64,000 nucleotides of DNA from Falsiroseomonas frigidaquae. Lineage in GTDB: Bacteria; Pseudomonadota; Alphaproteobacteria; Acetobacterales; Acetobacteraceae. Position numbers and translations under genes: made by a program. Below the pieces are notes generated by a model that ran no database searches, had not been told where the DNA came from, and saw nothing but the letters and a program-made list of their open reading frames with translations. Location: the NCBI RefSeq assembly GCF_012163145.1, contig NZ_JAAVTX010000005.1:124001-188000 (forward strand), in the 5' to 3' direction. Below are positions 28,084 to 59,329 of this stretch, piece by piece (positions within the stretch are counted from its first letter, which is position 1; the number at the start of each line of letters is the position of its first letter).

Positions 28084-28740
28084 TCAGCCGGGCATGGCGC
28101 CGCCATGGCGGCGGCGCGGCACCGGCGGGTCCTCGGCCGGCAGCGCCGCCTGCTGCAGCGCGTCCGGCACCGACGCCACCTCGCCCCCCTCATCGTATTC
28201 GGCATCGTGGTCAGCTTCGGCCGCCAGCTGTGGCGCTGCCGCTTCTTCGGCGGTGGCGACGGACGGACCAGGCTGTGGTGCCTCCCCCTCCGGCCGCTCT
28301 CCGATCGCCTGGGCCAGCAATTCCTTCAGCTTGCCGCCGATATCCAGCGAAAAGCCGGGCGGCATGCCGGCCGGGTTGTTGTAGTCCCAGGCGTAATCCG
28401 CGGGGCCGATGAAATCGCGGATCGTCGGGTCCAGCGACCACATCCGCCGCAGCGCCGCACCGCGCAGCGCGGCCGGGACGCCGGGGCGGAGGAACAGGGT
28501 GAAGTCGCTGGATTCGGTCAGATCCTCGATCCGTGGCAGGGCCGACAGGTCGATTTCCGGCACGCCGGGAATCGGGCAGGCCTGTGGCGCGGGGGATTTG
28601 AACCCGCCCTCCGCCATGGCGTCCGCTCCCGGCGTGACTTCAGGCTCCGGCGTGACATCAGGCCCTGGCGTGACCTCAGGCTCTGGGCGGCGCTTCAGGC
28701 GGGACCAGCGGCTGAGGAAGCCGTCTTCCGCGTCGCTCAT
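28084..28740 (-). CDS. DUF3306 protein, formate dehydrogenase cluster
   Basis: A 218-residue cytoplasmic protein that begins FLSRWSRLKRRPEPE, the usual DUF3306 start. A central conserved region SALPRIEDLTESSDFTLFLRPGVPAALRGAALRRMWSLDP-type with FIGPADYAWDYN (residues ~70-120) is followed by a long acidic, low-complexity tail. Near the N terminus the sequence (EVTPGPDVTPEP...) is made of three 18-bp DNA repeats (28631-28684). The biochemical role of this family is not known; it is recurrently found with FDH operons and DUF3305. Its start overlaps the DUF3305 stop (ATGA). Confidence 0.85.
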   Translation of the reverse strand: MSDAEDGFLSRWSRLKRRPEPEVTPGPDVTPEPEVTPGADAMAEGGFKSPAPQACPIPGVPEIDLSALPRIEDLTESSDFTLFLRPGVPAALRGAALRRMWSLDPTIRDFIGPADYAWDYNNPAGMPPGFSLDIGGKLKELLAQAIGERPEGEAPQPGPSVATAEEAAAPQLAAEADHDAEYDEGGEVASVPDALQQAALPAEDPPVPRRRHGGAMPG

Positions 28741-29258
28741 TCCTCCCCCTCCGCGATGCGGCTGCGATGTGCCAGGGCCTCCGGGTCCGCCTGGTCGCGC
28801 TTGCGCTTCCAGAAGCCGCGTTCCTTGTGATGCCGGGCGACGAATTCCTGCAGCACCGCATGCAGGCGCGGCGGCATGGGCAGCGATTCCAGCAAGTCCT
28901 GCCCGACATCGGCATAGAGATGCGCCTCCCCCGGATCGGCGGTGACGGTCTGCAGCGTCCAGCCGGAAACGGTCTCCGCCGGCCGCAGCAGCACCCAGAC
29001 CAGCGGCTGCGCGGAGGCAAGGTTGTGGCGGTAATTGTCGGTGTCGGTCGGGTACAGCGCCACCTCCGCGCGTCCGGCGAAGAACACGGTGCGGCCCGCC
29101 TCCTCCCGCAGCACGGTCCAGGGCGGCAGGTCCGGCGCCTCCTCCAGCACCTCGATCGCGCGCCAGGCGTATTCGGCCCAGCGGGTCACGCCGCGGCGGC
29201 GTTCCACCAGCACGGCCAGCGGGATGAACAGGCTGTCCGGGTTAACCGCGCGGGTCAT
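28737..29258 (-). CDS. DUF3305 protein, formate dehydrogenase cluster
   Basis: A 173-residue protein of the DUF3305 family: FIPLAVLVERRRGVTRWAEYAWRAIEVLE at the N terminus, FFAGRAEVALYPTDTDNYRHNL in the middle and a basic C terminus HHKERGFWKRKRDQADPEAL. No enzyme motif is apparent. ATG at 29258 is preferred over a GTG six bases earlier because GGAG lies eight bases upstream of the ATG. That same ribosome site and the ATGA junction have been copied four times in tandem directly upstream. Overlaps DUF3306 downstream. Confidence 0.87.
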   Translation of the reverse strand: MTRAVNPDSLFIPLAVLVERRRGVTRWAEYAWRAIEVLEEAPDLPPWTVLREEAGRTVFFAGRAEVALYPTDTDNYRHNLASAQPLVWVLLRPAETVSGWTLQTVTADPGEAHLYADVGQDLLESLPMPPRLHAVLQEFVARHHKERGFWKRKRDQADPEALAHRSRIAEGEE

Positions 29259-29358
29259 GCGCACCGCTCCGCGGTGGGGGTCATGCGCACCGCTCCACGG
29301 TGGCGGTCATGCGCACCGCTCCACGGTGGGGGTCATGCGCACCGCTCCACGGTGGGGG
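29255..29358 (-). repeat. 26-bp tandem repeat (4 units) forming four chained 9-codon mini-ORFs
   Basis: Four head-to-tail 26-base units (29255-29280, 29281-29306, 29307-29332, 29333-29358) sit exactly at the DUF6352/DUF3305 junction. On the minus strand each unit holds GGAGCGGTGCGCATGA, a ribosome-binding site plus overlapping start and stop. Because 26 is not a multiple of three, each ATG opens a nine-codon frame (MTPTVERCA, with variants MTATVERCA and MTPTAERCA) that stops at the next ATGA. The chain runs from the DUF6352 stop (29359-29361) to the DUF3305 ATG (29258), so ribosomes could re-initiate five times in a row. Confidence 0.9.
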
Positions 29359-30420
29359 TCATGCGCCATTCTCCCGCGCCCGCAGCGGCAGGCCGGCGAC
29401 CAGGTTCTGCGGCTTCATCCGCAGCTTCTGGGCCGCATCCATGGCGAGTGCCAGATACACCGGCTTGCCCGCGACGCGCGGCAGCACGCGGGACGATTCC
29501 TGAAAATCCAGCACGCCGAGCCAGAGGATGCGCGCCAGCCGCGCCTGCTTCACCTTCCTGCCCTGCCACAGATCATTGGCGATGCCCGTCGCCTCCGCAT
29601 CCAGCCCGACATGCCAGGTCCAGTTGCGGTCCTCGATCACCGGCACCGGGCGGATCGTCACCTCCTCCCCCATCACATGGCCGATGAAGCGTTCCAGCGC
29701 GCGCGCCAGCCCGTGCTGGCCGGGCCGGTTCTCGGCGATGTCGAGCGCGAAATCATGTGCATCCGACCGCCCGCGATAGAGCGGCGCATTGTCCTCCGAC
29801 AGCACATCCAGCTCGACCTCGCGGGGCGGCGATCCGGCCTCCACCAGCAACTGCCCGAGCGCGCCGAAGCCGCCATCGGCGCCGCGCATCTCCAGCACTT
29901 CCTCATCGGCCAGCAGCAGCGCGCCCTGGTGGATGGCGGCGCGCTGCGGGCGGAAGAACAGCTCCGCCGCACGCAGGGTGAAGGCATCCTCCACCCCCTC
30001 CAGCGCGGCTCGGGTCACGAGGTGGGTCAGCATCTGCAGGAAGATCGGCGGCACGCCCTGCACGCCGCCGCGGAACAGGTCGAGCCAGGCTGCTTCCAGG
30101 CTCGGCTGCGCCGCCACCCGGTCGCGGAAGCCGAGGAACACCGCGAAATTCTCCCGCGCATCCGCATCCGCCAGCCGCGCCAGCTCCGCGGCCGCCACCG
30201 CCCGCATCGGGTCGGCCAGCAGCGCGGCATGCAGCGCGCGCTCCGCCGGGCAGGCCTCCTCCGGCGGCACCAGCTCCGGCCGGGCGCAGAAGGCGCGCCA
30301 GAGATCGGGCGTGCCGAGGATGCGGCCCTGCTCGTCCCGGTCGCACAGATGGTGGCCGGAAGCGACCCAGAAATCGCCCGGGGCCAGGCCGAGGGGGGCC
30401 AATCCTGCGGGGGCGCTCAT
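29359..30420 (-). CDS. DUF6352-type protein, formate dehydrogenase cluster
   Basis: A 353-residue cytoplasmic protein. The N terminus GDFWVASGHHLCDRDEQGRILGTPDLWRAF is a well conserved block in this FDH-associated family, as are the DNAPLYRGRSDAHDFALDIA block near 210 and the NWTWHVGLDAEATGIANDLW block near 280. No nucleotide-binding or redox motif is visible. The family has no known activity; by context it is an assembly or maturation factor of formate dehydrogenase. The stop codon overlaps the first mini-ORF of the 26-bp repeat array. Overlaps the DUF6505 gene upstream by four bases. Confidence 0.82.
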   Translation of the reverse strand: MSAPAGLAPLGLAPGDFWVASGHHLCDRDEQGRILGTPDLWRAFCARPELVPPEEACPAERALHAALLADPMRAVAAAELARLADADARENFAVFLGFRDRVAAQPSLEAAWLDLFRGGVQGVPPIFLQMLTHLVTRAALEGVEDAFTLRAAELFFRPQRAAIHQGALLLADEEVLEMRGADGGFGALGQLLVEAGSPPREVELDVLSEDNAPLYRGRSDAHDFALDIAENRPGQHGLARALERFIGHVMGEEVTIRPVPVIEDRNWTWHVGLDAEATGIANDLWQGRKVKQARLARILWLGVLDFQESSRVLPRVAGKPVYLALAMDAAQKLRMKPQNLVAGLPLRARENGA

Positions 30421-36321: not shown

Positions 36322-37758
36322 TCAGCCGAAGATCACGTCGCCTTCCGCCAGGGCGGAGACGCCGCGCAGCGTCGCGATCAGCACCGCGTCGCCGCCCCCC
36401 GGCCCGTCCATATCCATGCTCAGATCGCCATTGGTGGTGTTGAACAGAAGGGTCGGCCCCTCCCCGCCCACAGGCGCCTCACCCTGCACCAGCGGCCCGC
36501 TGAACGGCAGGAACAGGCGGATCTGATCCTCGCCGCTGACAAAGCCGCGGATGATGTCGCCGCCATCCTCGAAGGAGGTGTAGACAAAGACGTCCTGGTC
36601 GCCATCGGCCTGGGTCTGGATCAGGTCGGAGCCGACATTGCCGAAGATCGTATCGGCACCGGCGCCGCCGATCAGCGTGTCGTCCCCGGCGCCACCCAGG
36701 ATCAGGTCGATGCCGGCGCCGCCATTGACCAGGTCGTTGCCCCAATTGCCGTAGAGCAGGTCGTCGCCCGCGCCGCCCAGCACGCTGTCATCGTCGTCGC
36801 CACCATCCAGCGTATCGGCGCCGTCGCCGCCATTCAGCAGGTCGTTGCCGGCGTCGCCATCGATCTCGTCGGCGCCGGCATTGCCCTGGATGCGATCGGC
36901 GTCGTCGCCGCCCGAAATGAAGTCGTCGCCGTTCTCGCCGCGCATCGTGTCGGCGCCGTCGACGCCATACATGAAGTCCCGGCCGCCGCCGCCCCGCAGG
37001 ATGTCCTGGCCTGCGCCGCCATCCATGTCGTCATTGCCATCGCCACCGGACAGCACGTCGTTGCCCGCGCCGGCGAAGATCCCGTCGCCACCGGCACCGC
37101 CAAGCAGATGGTCGTCGTCGGCACCGCCCTGCATGAAGTCGTTGCCGTCGCCGCCGGTCAGCGTGTCGTTGCCTTCATCGCCATACAGCGCGTCGTCGCC
37201 GAAGCCGCCGACCACGCGGTCATCATCCGCACCACCCTGGAGGTAGTCGTTGCCCGCTCCACCGATCAGCGTGTCGTTGCCGCCCTCGCCATAGCTCCCG
37301 TCATCGCCGGCCATGCCCATGATGAGGTCGCCACCCTGGCCGCCATGCACGGTATCGCGCTGCGCACCGCCTACCAGCGTGTCGTTGCCGCTGCCGGTGA
37401 CGATCAGGCTGCGGAAATCGTCACGTTCGTCGCGGTCCTGCGGCGTGGCGAGATCCGGGCTGAGATGGATCGAGACATGCTCCACCTGGGTATCGCCGGG
37501 CGGGTCGAGCAGGTTGGCGGTGAAGCTGGCGACGCCGTCGACCAGCAGCGCCTCGCCGGGCTGCGGCACATAGCTGAAGGCCCAGGTGAAGGCGAAGCTC
37601 GGCTCGGTCGGCGTGACCAGTTCCGACACGCCATTGCCCCAGTCATCGACCTGCACGGAGACCGCCTGCAGCGGCCCGGTGGTGAACAGCCAGACCGGCG
37701 TGATCGCGGTGAAGCCCAGGAACTGGACTCGGCCAAGATTGACGACATCGACAAGCAT
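36322..37758 (-). CDS. RTX calcium-binding repeat protein
   Basis: A 478-residue protein from the ATG at 37758. Residues 1 to ~105 are a beta-rich domain without known motif. Residues ~110 to 390 are nearly uninterrupted RTX nonapeptides of the GGxGNDxLx type (GSGNDTLVGGAQRDTV, GGAGNDYLQGGADDD and so on), roughly thirty units. A C-terminal ~80-residue segment (QDVFVYTSFEDGGDIIRGF, then DLSMDMDGPGGGDAVLIATLRGVSAL) resembles type I secretion targets. No protease, lipase or adhesin domain is seen. It is probably a secreted calcium-binding or surface protein. Confidence 0.85.
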   Translation of the reverse strand: MLVDVVNLGRVQFLGFTAITPVWLFTTGPLQAVSVQVDDWGNGVSELVTPTEPSFAFTWAFSYVPQPGEALLVDGVASFTANLLDPPGDTQVEHVSIHLSPDLATPQDRDERDDFRSLIVTGSGNDTLVGGAQRDTVHGGQGGDLIMGMAGDDGSYGEGGNDTLIGGAGNDYLQGGADDDRVVGGFGDDALYGDEGNDTLTGGDGNDFMQGGADDDHLLGGAGGDGIFAGAGNDVLSGGDGNDDMDGGAGQDILRGGGGRDFMYGVDGADTMRGENGDDFISGGDDADRIQGNAGADEIDGDAGNDLLNGGDGADTLDGGDDDDSVLGGAGDDLLYGNWGNDLVNGGAGIDLILGGAGDDTLIGGAGADTIFGNVGSDLIQTQADGDQDVFVYTSFEDGGDIIRGFVSGEDQIRLFLPFSGPLVQGEAPVGGEGPTLLFNTTNGDLSMDMDGPGGGDAVLIATLRGVSALAEGDVIFG

Positions 37759-58204: not shown

Positions 58205-59329
58205 GTGAAACTACGCGTCATCCGCGCGGCGAAGATGTCGGACGCCATGGCGCAGCTGCGCGCCGAGCTGGGCGAGGATGCGGTGCTGCTCTCCACCCGC
58301 CGCATCGCCGGCGGCGTGGAGGTGACGGCGGCGCAGGACCAGGACGACGAGCCGCTGATGATCGCGCCGGATGCGGTGCCGAACCATCGCGCCATCCCGC
58401 CCGACCTGGCGCGCCACAACGTACCGGCGGCGCTGGCGCACCGGCTGGCGGAGGGCCGGCTGGCGGCGGCGCTGGACAACGTGCTCGGCTTCGCCCGCCT
58501 GCCGCTCGGCCCGGCGCCGCTGCTGCTGGCCGGGCCGCCGGGTGCGGGCAAGACACTGACGGCGGCCAAGCTCGCCACGAGGCTGGTGCTGGCCGGCAAG
58601 CCGCCGCTGCTGATCAGCGCCGATGGCCGCAAGGCGGGCGCGGCCGAACAGCTCGCCGCCTTCGCCCGGGTGTTGGATCTGCCGCTGGCGATCGCGGGTG
58701 GGCCCGCCGCGCTGGGCAAGGCGCTGGCGCGGCGTGGCGCGGGGCAGCCGGTGCTGGTGGACCTGCCGGGCTGCGATCCCTTCGACCCGGCGGGCGCCCG
58801 CACCCTCGCCGCGATGCTGGAAGTGGCGAAGGGCGCCTGCGTGCTGGTGCTGCCGGCGGGGCTGGACCCGGAGGAAGCGGCGGAGACGGCGGGCGCCTTC
58901 CGCCTGCTCGGCTGCCGGCACCTGCTGCCGACGCGGCTGGATTGCGCGCGGCGGCTCGGCAGCGTGCTGGCGGCCGCCGCGGTCGGCCTGCCGCTGACCG
59001 AGGCCGGCACCGGGCCGGATGCCTCGGGCGGGCTGGAACCCTTGACGCCGGAAGGCCTGGCGCGGCGCCTCGCCGCGCCGGCCGCGCACGCATCCGGCGC
59101 ATCGGGCTCGGCGCGGGCGGGGCCATCGGGCACCGCACGGGCCGAGCCACCAGGCGCCGTTCGAGCTGGCGCATCGGGCGCCCTTCGGGATGCTGTATCG
59201 GGCGCCCTTCGGGATGCTGCATCGGGCGCCCTTCGGGCTGAACCATCGGGCGCCCTTCGGGCTGAGCCACCGGGCGCCCTTCGGGCTGAACCATCGGGCG
59301 CCCTTCGGGCGACGCAGGAGAAAGCATGA
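58205..59329 (+). CDS. flhF: FlhF-like SRP-type GTPase with repeat tail
   Basis: 374 residues from the GTG at 58205. The N-terminal part is FlhF-like (KMSDAMAQLRAELGEDAVLLSTRRIAGGVEVTAAQ). The NG domain follows: GPPGAGKTLTAAKLATRLV at ~120, then ADGRKAGAAEQL at ~140 (DTYR in SRP GTPases), DLPGCDP at ~185 (DTAGR), and PTRLDC at ~240 (TKLDE). These G motifs are diverged. The last ~55 residues are six copies of an eight-residue unit around SGALRAEP, made by a 24-bp tandem repeat. It lies before flhG as in polar flagellates, consistent with a polar flagellum role. Confidence 0.82.
   Translation: MKLRVIRAAKMSDAMAQLRAELGEDAVLLSTRRIAGGVEVTAAQDQDDEPLMIAPDAVPNHRAIPPDLARHNVPAALAHRLAEGRLAAALDNVLGFARLPLGPAPLLLAGPPGAGKTLTAAKLATRLVLAGKPPLLISADGRKAGAAEQLAAFARVLDLPLAIAGGPAALGKALARRGAGQPVLVDLPGCDPFDPAGARTLAAMLEVAKGACVLVLPAGLDPEEAAETAGAFRLLGCRHLLPTRLDCARRLGSVLAAAAVGLPLTEAGTGPDASGGLEPLTPEGLARRLAAPAAHASGASGSARAGPSGTARAEPPGAVRAGASGALRDAVSGALRDAASGALRAEPSGALRAEPPGALRAEPSGALRATQEKA
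59171..59314 (+). repeat. 24-bp tandem repeat (6 units) in flhF
   Basis: Six contiguous 24-base units (starts 59171, 59195, 59219, 59243, 59267, 59291) that encode the SGALR-type octapeptides at the end of FlhF. The core CGGGCGCCCTTCGGG is identical in all six; variation is confined to the last five bases. Confidence 0.95.

Follow-up and report, generated by a model that had tools for sequence, protein, structure and literature searches.

Four 26-bp units in tandem part the stop codon of a DUF6352 gene from the start codon of a DUF3305 gene on the minus strand of the 64,000-nt stretch of DNA analysed here (the window; array at 29255-29362), in a genome of 6.08 Mb assembled in 19 contigs. Judged from the sequence, the array appears to be a duplicated coupling junction, a variant of translational coupling that is apparently new. 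Whether the tandemly duplicated junction, made of a Shine-Dalgarno (SD) sequence and an ATGA overlap, works as a translation relay is a proposition on which we stand evenly balanced, and the array is probably one form of a relay that occurs at tight gene junctions of the genus.

The units follow the consensus ATGACC(C/G)CCACCG(T/C)GGAGCGGTGCGC. The 3' end of the DUF6352 gene reads ...GGCGCATGA, and its TGA is the TGA within the first ATGA of the array. On the minus strand, five ATGA sites have their first bases at 29362, 29336, 29310, 29284 and 29258, and five GGAG sites, at 29374, 29348, 29322, 29296 and 29270, each lie 8 nt 5' of the corresponding ATGA. Of the five ATG codons, the first shares bases with the stop of DUF6352 and the last serves as the start codon of DUF3305; each of the first four opens a frame of nine codons that closes at the next ATGA of the array. 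We thus found the -4/-1 stop/start overlap of termination-reinitiation coupling at five sites in series, with an SD sequence (GGAG, 8 nt before the ATG) within the upstream frame near every start, and also, as in leaders and minigenes, short ORFs (four, of nine codons) that close on the following start. The initial annotation had described the four copies with their GGAG and ATGA, the positions at which DUF6352 stops and DUF3305 starts, and the nine-codon frames (MTPTVERCA and near copies). All of these were borne out, the copies both on the sequence and by TRF, and the ends of the two genes are fixed by relatives that have no insert.

Table 1. Coordinates of the array, its mini-ORFs and the neighbouring genes in the window.
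Feature	Position	Strand	Remarks
DUF6352 gene, upstream partner, 353 aa	30420-29359	-	Pfam E 1.6e-67
26-bp tandem array	29252..29366	-	TRF: period 26, 4.4 copies, 96% matches, score 216
Mini-ORF 1, MTPTVERCA	29333..29362	-	begins on DUF6352 stop
Mini-ORF 2, MTPTVERCA	29307..29336	-	sequence
Mini-ORF 3, MTATVERCA	29281..29310	-	sequence
Mini-ORF 4, MTPTAERCA	29255..29284	-	closes on DUF3305 start
DUF3305 gene, downstream partner, 173 aa	28737..29258	-	Pfam E 1.3e-35; ATG 29258-29256, stop 28739-28737
DUF3306 gene	28084..28740	-	Pfam E 1.1e-23; ATGA overlap with DUF3305

Allowing up to 3 mismatches, a 25-nt probe of the unit found four matches in the window versus 0.00 expected in shuffles; chance matches are excluded as an account of the array. 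Genome-wide, a 26-nt probe with the same tolerance likewise found four matches, all in this array, and a dispersed element of the REP or MITE type was rejected on that result. The nine-codon chain follows automatically from a tandem repeat that has ATGA, no other stop and a period of 2 modulo 3, the last being a property of roughly one in three. Because every unit stops itself with its own ATGA, a change in copy number is unable to shift the DUF3305 frame, which restarts at any unit number, and frame-switch phase variation was rejected from the sequence.

DUF3305 is followed on its own strand by DUF3306, a gene for a Nitrate_red_del-family protein and one for a molybdopterin oxidoreductase. 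DUF3305 is present in all 16 genus members compared, and at its junction with DUF3306 the stop of DUF3305 lies in an ATGA or GTGA, without insert, in 16/16. In a previous study, DUF3305/DUF3306 are reported upstream in 60% of linked dmsD-fdhGHI operons (PMC4464133).

To describe the DUF6352/DUF3305 junction across the genus, we denote the genome bearing the four-unit array as G000 and its relatives, one genome per species, by other G numbers. The unit number is 4, 1, 0, 0 and 0 in G000, G002, G001, G003 and G008, respectively, a comparison between species with one genome each; in the last three, the two genes overlap directly (-4, -4 and -1). The single 26-nt unit of G002, the nearest relative compared, is a nine-codon frame, VTPTAERRP, which begins on the DUF6352 stop (GTGA) and closes on the ATGA of DUF3305. 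This extra unit aligns with the adjacent junction, SD and start included, and looks like a copy of it. The simplest history would be one duplication of the junction before the split of G000 and G002 and a later expansion to four units in G000, the order being inferred. Two further proposals of the initial annotation agree with these data, namely that the junction itself had been duplicated and that unit number could change. It missed, however, that other kinds of insert form the same stop-on-start relay, both here and at other junctions.

Extra DNA of three seemingly unrelated kinds is found at the DUF6352/DUF3305 junction in 6 of the 16 genus members, and all six inserts are open relay frames running from the DUF6352 stop to the DUF3305 start. 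A palindromic element with the ends GCGCCCCCGAT/ATCGGGGGCGC is present in one copy in G009 (with diverged ends), in two copies in G012 and in at least four in G011. The relay has 26 codons in G009 and 50 codons in G012, where two 72-bp repeats lie in frame. The G011 array, with an in-frame period of 87 bp, is split over contigs C206 and C278; of these two contig parts, the left opens on the DUF6352 stop with GTGACC, and the right closes on DUF3305 with ACCATGA. The script had labelled this junction 'direct', and the label was set aside, as the relay had been mistaken for the upstream gene. G013 carries 157 nt of another repeat, forming a relay of 53-54 codons. By eye, neither the palindromic element nor the G013 repeat resembles the 26-bp unit.

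The palindromic element of this junction in G012, G009 and G011 also occurs at G012:C1:355187-355263 (L075:1188-1264), where, with inverted ends of 11 bp, it forms a 26-codon relay between two genes. These genes look like M16 peptidases; a 200-aa piece had no match in Pfam. The pair has a plain -4 overlap in 13 other genus members. Among 398 family genomes, the exact pattern of the element (gap 6-36) was found in G012 only, a pattern that cannot match the G009 and G011 variants, and a looser 22-nt probe with 3 mismatches found 15 places in 8 of the 16 genus genomes, several of them probably by chance.

Three further gene pairs gave similar results. In an AAA pair, 12 of 15 junctions are direct, and the inserts of G002, G003 and G010 are all relays. 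In a transglutaminase-like pair, 11 of 15 junctions are direct or abutting and the inserts of G013, G014, G006 and G011 are relays in all four cases, with the start of the G014 relay lying 3 nt past a TAA. The third pair, presumably dppC/dppD-like and with a Pfam ABC_tran match, is direct at 8 of 11 places, and its inserts in G000, G007 and G009 are relays (3/3); 11 of 21 places were used here, the ten lowest (identity of 63% or less) having been dropped as likely paralogues. By ATG starts, the inserts measure 115 nt in G000 (L258) and 145 nt in G007 (L267), and in both an in-frame TTG lies 7 or 10 nt past the stop, where a possible N-terminal extension could begin. The script label 'direct' was overruled for L016, L258 and L267, and all three were counted as inserts and relays. 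The insert of G009 (L268) has 46 nt and is open as a relay, ending in TGATG, not ATGA.

The repeat inserted in G013 is dispersed, with many copies across the genome: we counted at least 26 matches in G000, 46 in G013, 31 in G002 and 42 in G012. At L013:2005-2164 it is seen as an abundant palindromic repeat of about 160 bp in these four genomes, with no match in Rfam. A few copies are in tandem, and at L152 (G000) four lie in one frame of 149 codons. We surveyed 78 loci with 88 copies (52 co-directional, 24 convergent, 6 divergent, 4 inside a frame and 2 unclear); L105, L108 and L113, of 20 loci, were left out and replaced by L178 and L179. Relays were found at 7 of 45 co-directional loci (L094, L097, L101, L130, L151, L152, with a TTG start, and L173), and the other 38 are not relays. 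The AAA, transglutaminase-like and dppC/dppD-like pairs compared across the genus were taken from among these relay loci. Of two near misses, L136 has a frame broken after five codons and flanking genes that look unrelated, and L137 has a frame that continues beyond the next gene.

Altogether, the five gene pairs comprise 71 junctions, of which 54 overlap or abut and 17 have inserts, and all 17 inserts are relays; three of the pairs were chosen for holding a relay and a fourth for holding the palindromic element. The strict -4/-1 overlap is present in 15 of the 16 inserts that the script could test, and absent from L229. In random segments of G000 taken in random phase, a strict relay arises by chance at 24-31% for 14 of the 16 inserts, at 1.7% for L229 and at 2.4% for L268; under looser rules the values are 27-45%, L229 excepted. 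Any single relay is weak evidence. For eight seemingly independent inserts, none itself the reason for looking, the product of the chances is about 3e-6, or 3.5e-5 if L268 is set at 0.3, a product that assumes independence and takes no account of the post hoc choice of pairs. These eight are the G009/G012/G011 element and the G013 insert at DUF6352/DUF3305, the M16 case of G012, which was met while following the palindromic element, G011 at the transglutaminase-like pair, G003 and G010 at the AAA pair, and G007 and G009 at the dppC/dppD-like pair. A genome-wide test on 1.224 Mb of G000 showed no excess of the relay frame (31 versus 25 and 42) among 510 non-overlapping co-directional pairs, with a crude gene caller that overlooked the DUF6352/DUF3305 array itself; the matches listed include 10 chains or single relays, several of them probably real genes. 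Taken together, ordinary gaps show no enrichment of relays, but DNA inserted at a tight overlap seems to form one.

In the relay that we propose, ribosomes finishing DUF6352 would restart at the overlapping ATG, read nine codons, stop at the next ATGA and so pass stepwise to DUF3305. What is maintained would be the unbroken stop-on-start path, and the mini-peptides would probably be by-products; a function of the mini-peptides is not favoured, as their sequences vary between G000 and G002 as well as among the units. Termination-reinitiation coupling at ATGA or TGATG overlaps is known (PMC6728339, PMC10666635, PMC12548453). According to these reports, coupling is best at spacings between -4 and +3 nt and has dropped 3- to 10-fold at about +40, some exceptions aside (PMC12548453, which also cites studies with coupling over larger spacings), and coupling is nearly abolished at about 20-38 nt (PMC10666635). 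Since spacings of a few tens of nt are thus reported to weaken or abolish coupling, there would be reason for the unbroken path to be kept. Because coupling falls with distance, inserts of 22-157 nt should weaken it unless translated through, and a relay frame would mean that the insert is translated through and coupling is spared. The best reading of the relays may thus be that they preserve translational coupling over insertions.

According to the initial annotation, a ribosome finishing DUF6352 could reach DUF3305 only by re-initiating through the four mini-ORFs in turn. This is unsupported, as each unit has its own GGAG and fresh initiation at the last one is possible; with an SD sequence in every unit, the array would allow both re-initiation and fresh initiation. 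Because GGAG is retained in each unit, part of DUF3305 initiation is probably fresh, and for that reason DUF3305 output is maybe little changed or modestly lowered. The SD of the last start is poor (-1.7) at DUF6352/DUF3305 of G013 and at the transglutaminase-like pair of G011, versus a fair -7.3 in the array, energies that were computed with an assumed anti-SD sequence; being poor, these two starts would lean more on the relay. More broadly, we tentatively suggest, with somewhat less than even confidence, that tight ATGA junctions of the genus tolerate only inserts that are open relays, joined stop-on-start at both ends, that tandem copies of the junction and two or more kinds of palindromic repeat have come to serve interchangeably as relays, and that some 'intergenic' repeats are translated cistrons with the role of handing ribosomes on.

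A quite possible alternative, which we would not call the likelier outcome, is a neutral minisatellite, in which slippage has amplified a junction unit, ribosomes newly bound at the last GGAG start DUF3305, and the chain is an accident of the period. The strength of the SD at the last unit and the lack of a genome-wide excess of the relay frame are in line with this. Arrays are also common, 23 TRF rows, some overlapping, being found in 1.22 Mb of G000 (period 10-60, at least 2.8 copies, 85% matches, score 100), and several sit at gene ends, one example being the groES/groEL junction, where no relay is formed. A neutral origin, however, does not account for the relays formed by all 17 inserts at five junctions that are normally tight.

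We consider it improbable that the chain is a regulatory buffer or tuner, lowering or conditioning DUF3305/DUF3306 output with a unit number adjusted by slippage. The unit number does vary between species (4, 1, 0), and minigenes are able to modulate a downstream gene, as described in PMC8708949; against this, self-stopping units make a frame switch impossible, and the peptide is not conserved (MTPTVERCA in G000, VTPTAERRP in G002). Control by RNA structure, with hairpins near GGAG or ATG (CACCG/CGGTG) governing access to the start, appears very unlikely indeed. A small hairpin (-7.3 kcal/mol) is possible in each unit, and adjacent units can pair around the ATG, but the fold energy of the array is within the range of shuffles (z -1.1; 40 of 300 as stable), and 133 of 300 shuffled units set in tandem were as stable as the array. 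A search of six loci, L002 included, gave no Rfam match up to E 1. A structured regulatory RNA was rejected on both counts, the fold being no better than that of shuffles.

In bicistronic design leaders, the stop codon overlaps the start of the target cistron, and Rickettsia palindromic elements are small mobile repeats carrying reading frames. The array resembles several known systems and differs from each. It shares with termination-reinitiation pairs the 4-nt stop-start overlap and the SD in the upstream frame, both present at each link of its chain, but those pairs have one overlap per two genes, whereas the array has five in series through four mini-cistrons derived from a duplicated overlap. 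Bicistronic design (PMC5995908) likewise sets a short first cistron before the target, with a leader that is engineered and single, in contrast to a natural, tandem arrangement between two genes. The axe-txe minigene (PMC8708949), for which it matters how far the stop lies from the next start, is also a mini-ORF acting in cis on the next gene, but has two codons and is single, unlike a tandem chain of stop-on-start units. Also similar is mgtQ between mgtC and mgtB, a short intercistronic ORF affecting translation of the second gene; it is regulated, being tied to stem-loops and acidic codons, and the accessible sections of that report describe no tandem units (PMC8092293). RU elements, beside which the Rickettsia elements are mentioned (PMC2759123), are dispersed palindromic repeats open in frame, as are the G013 and G012 inserts, but they fuse with a protein, whereas these inserts form a separate cistron between two genes, and the 26-bp unit, unlike RU elements, is not dispersed. 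In the accessible portions of the open-licence PMC literature, we found no description of a tandem mini-cistron chain or of repeat-borne relays.

A second chain of duplicated starts lies at G000:C9:61879-61956 (L191:1879-1956), between two genes that Pfam assigns to the gamma-glutamyltranspeptidase family and to the aminotransferases; about three copies of a 26-bp unit that includes the start site are present there. Its mini-ORFs MIAWR, MALKVGLSAWR and MALKIGKSAWR lie ahead of the gene MALKIGRGAEAPP..., and each shares 10 nt with the frame that follows it. Other arrays were also seen, and those of the sample that lie at gene junctions form no such chain. At G000:C12:347594-347698 (L225), a 26-bp array that is not a relay lies right after a stop (TGATG) and before a gene that we take to be groEL-like. 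In the window, a 24-bp array of 6.6 copies (59153-59310) is in frame at the C-terminus of a gene, with the ATGA of the next gene directly after it, and 36640-37309 holds TRF repeats of 27, 54 and 108 bp. Arrays of 24-26 bp with palindromic units lie at gene 3' ends at G000:C15:37282-37454 and C15:22219-22325 (L057).

If the relays are translated, the DUF6352/DUF3305 junction, with 0, 1 or 4 units and other inserts, would offer a natural series for the passage of ribosomes from gene to gene. Translation would also account for the reading frames retained by repeats at operon junctions, and would reveal a group of short cistrons probably overlooked by annotation. These data suggest that short relay frames may keep the translation of neighbouring genes linked.
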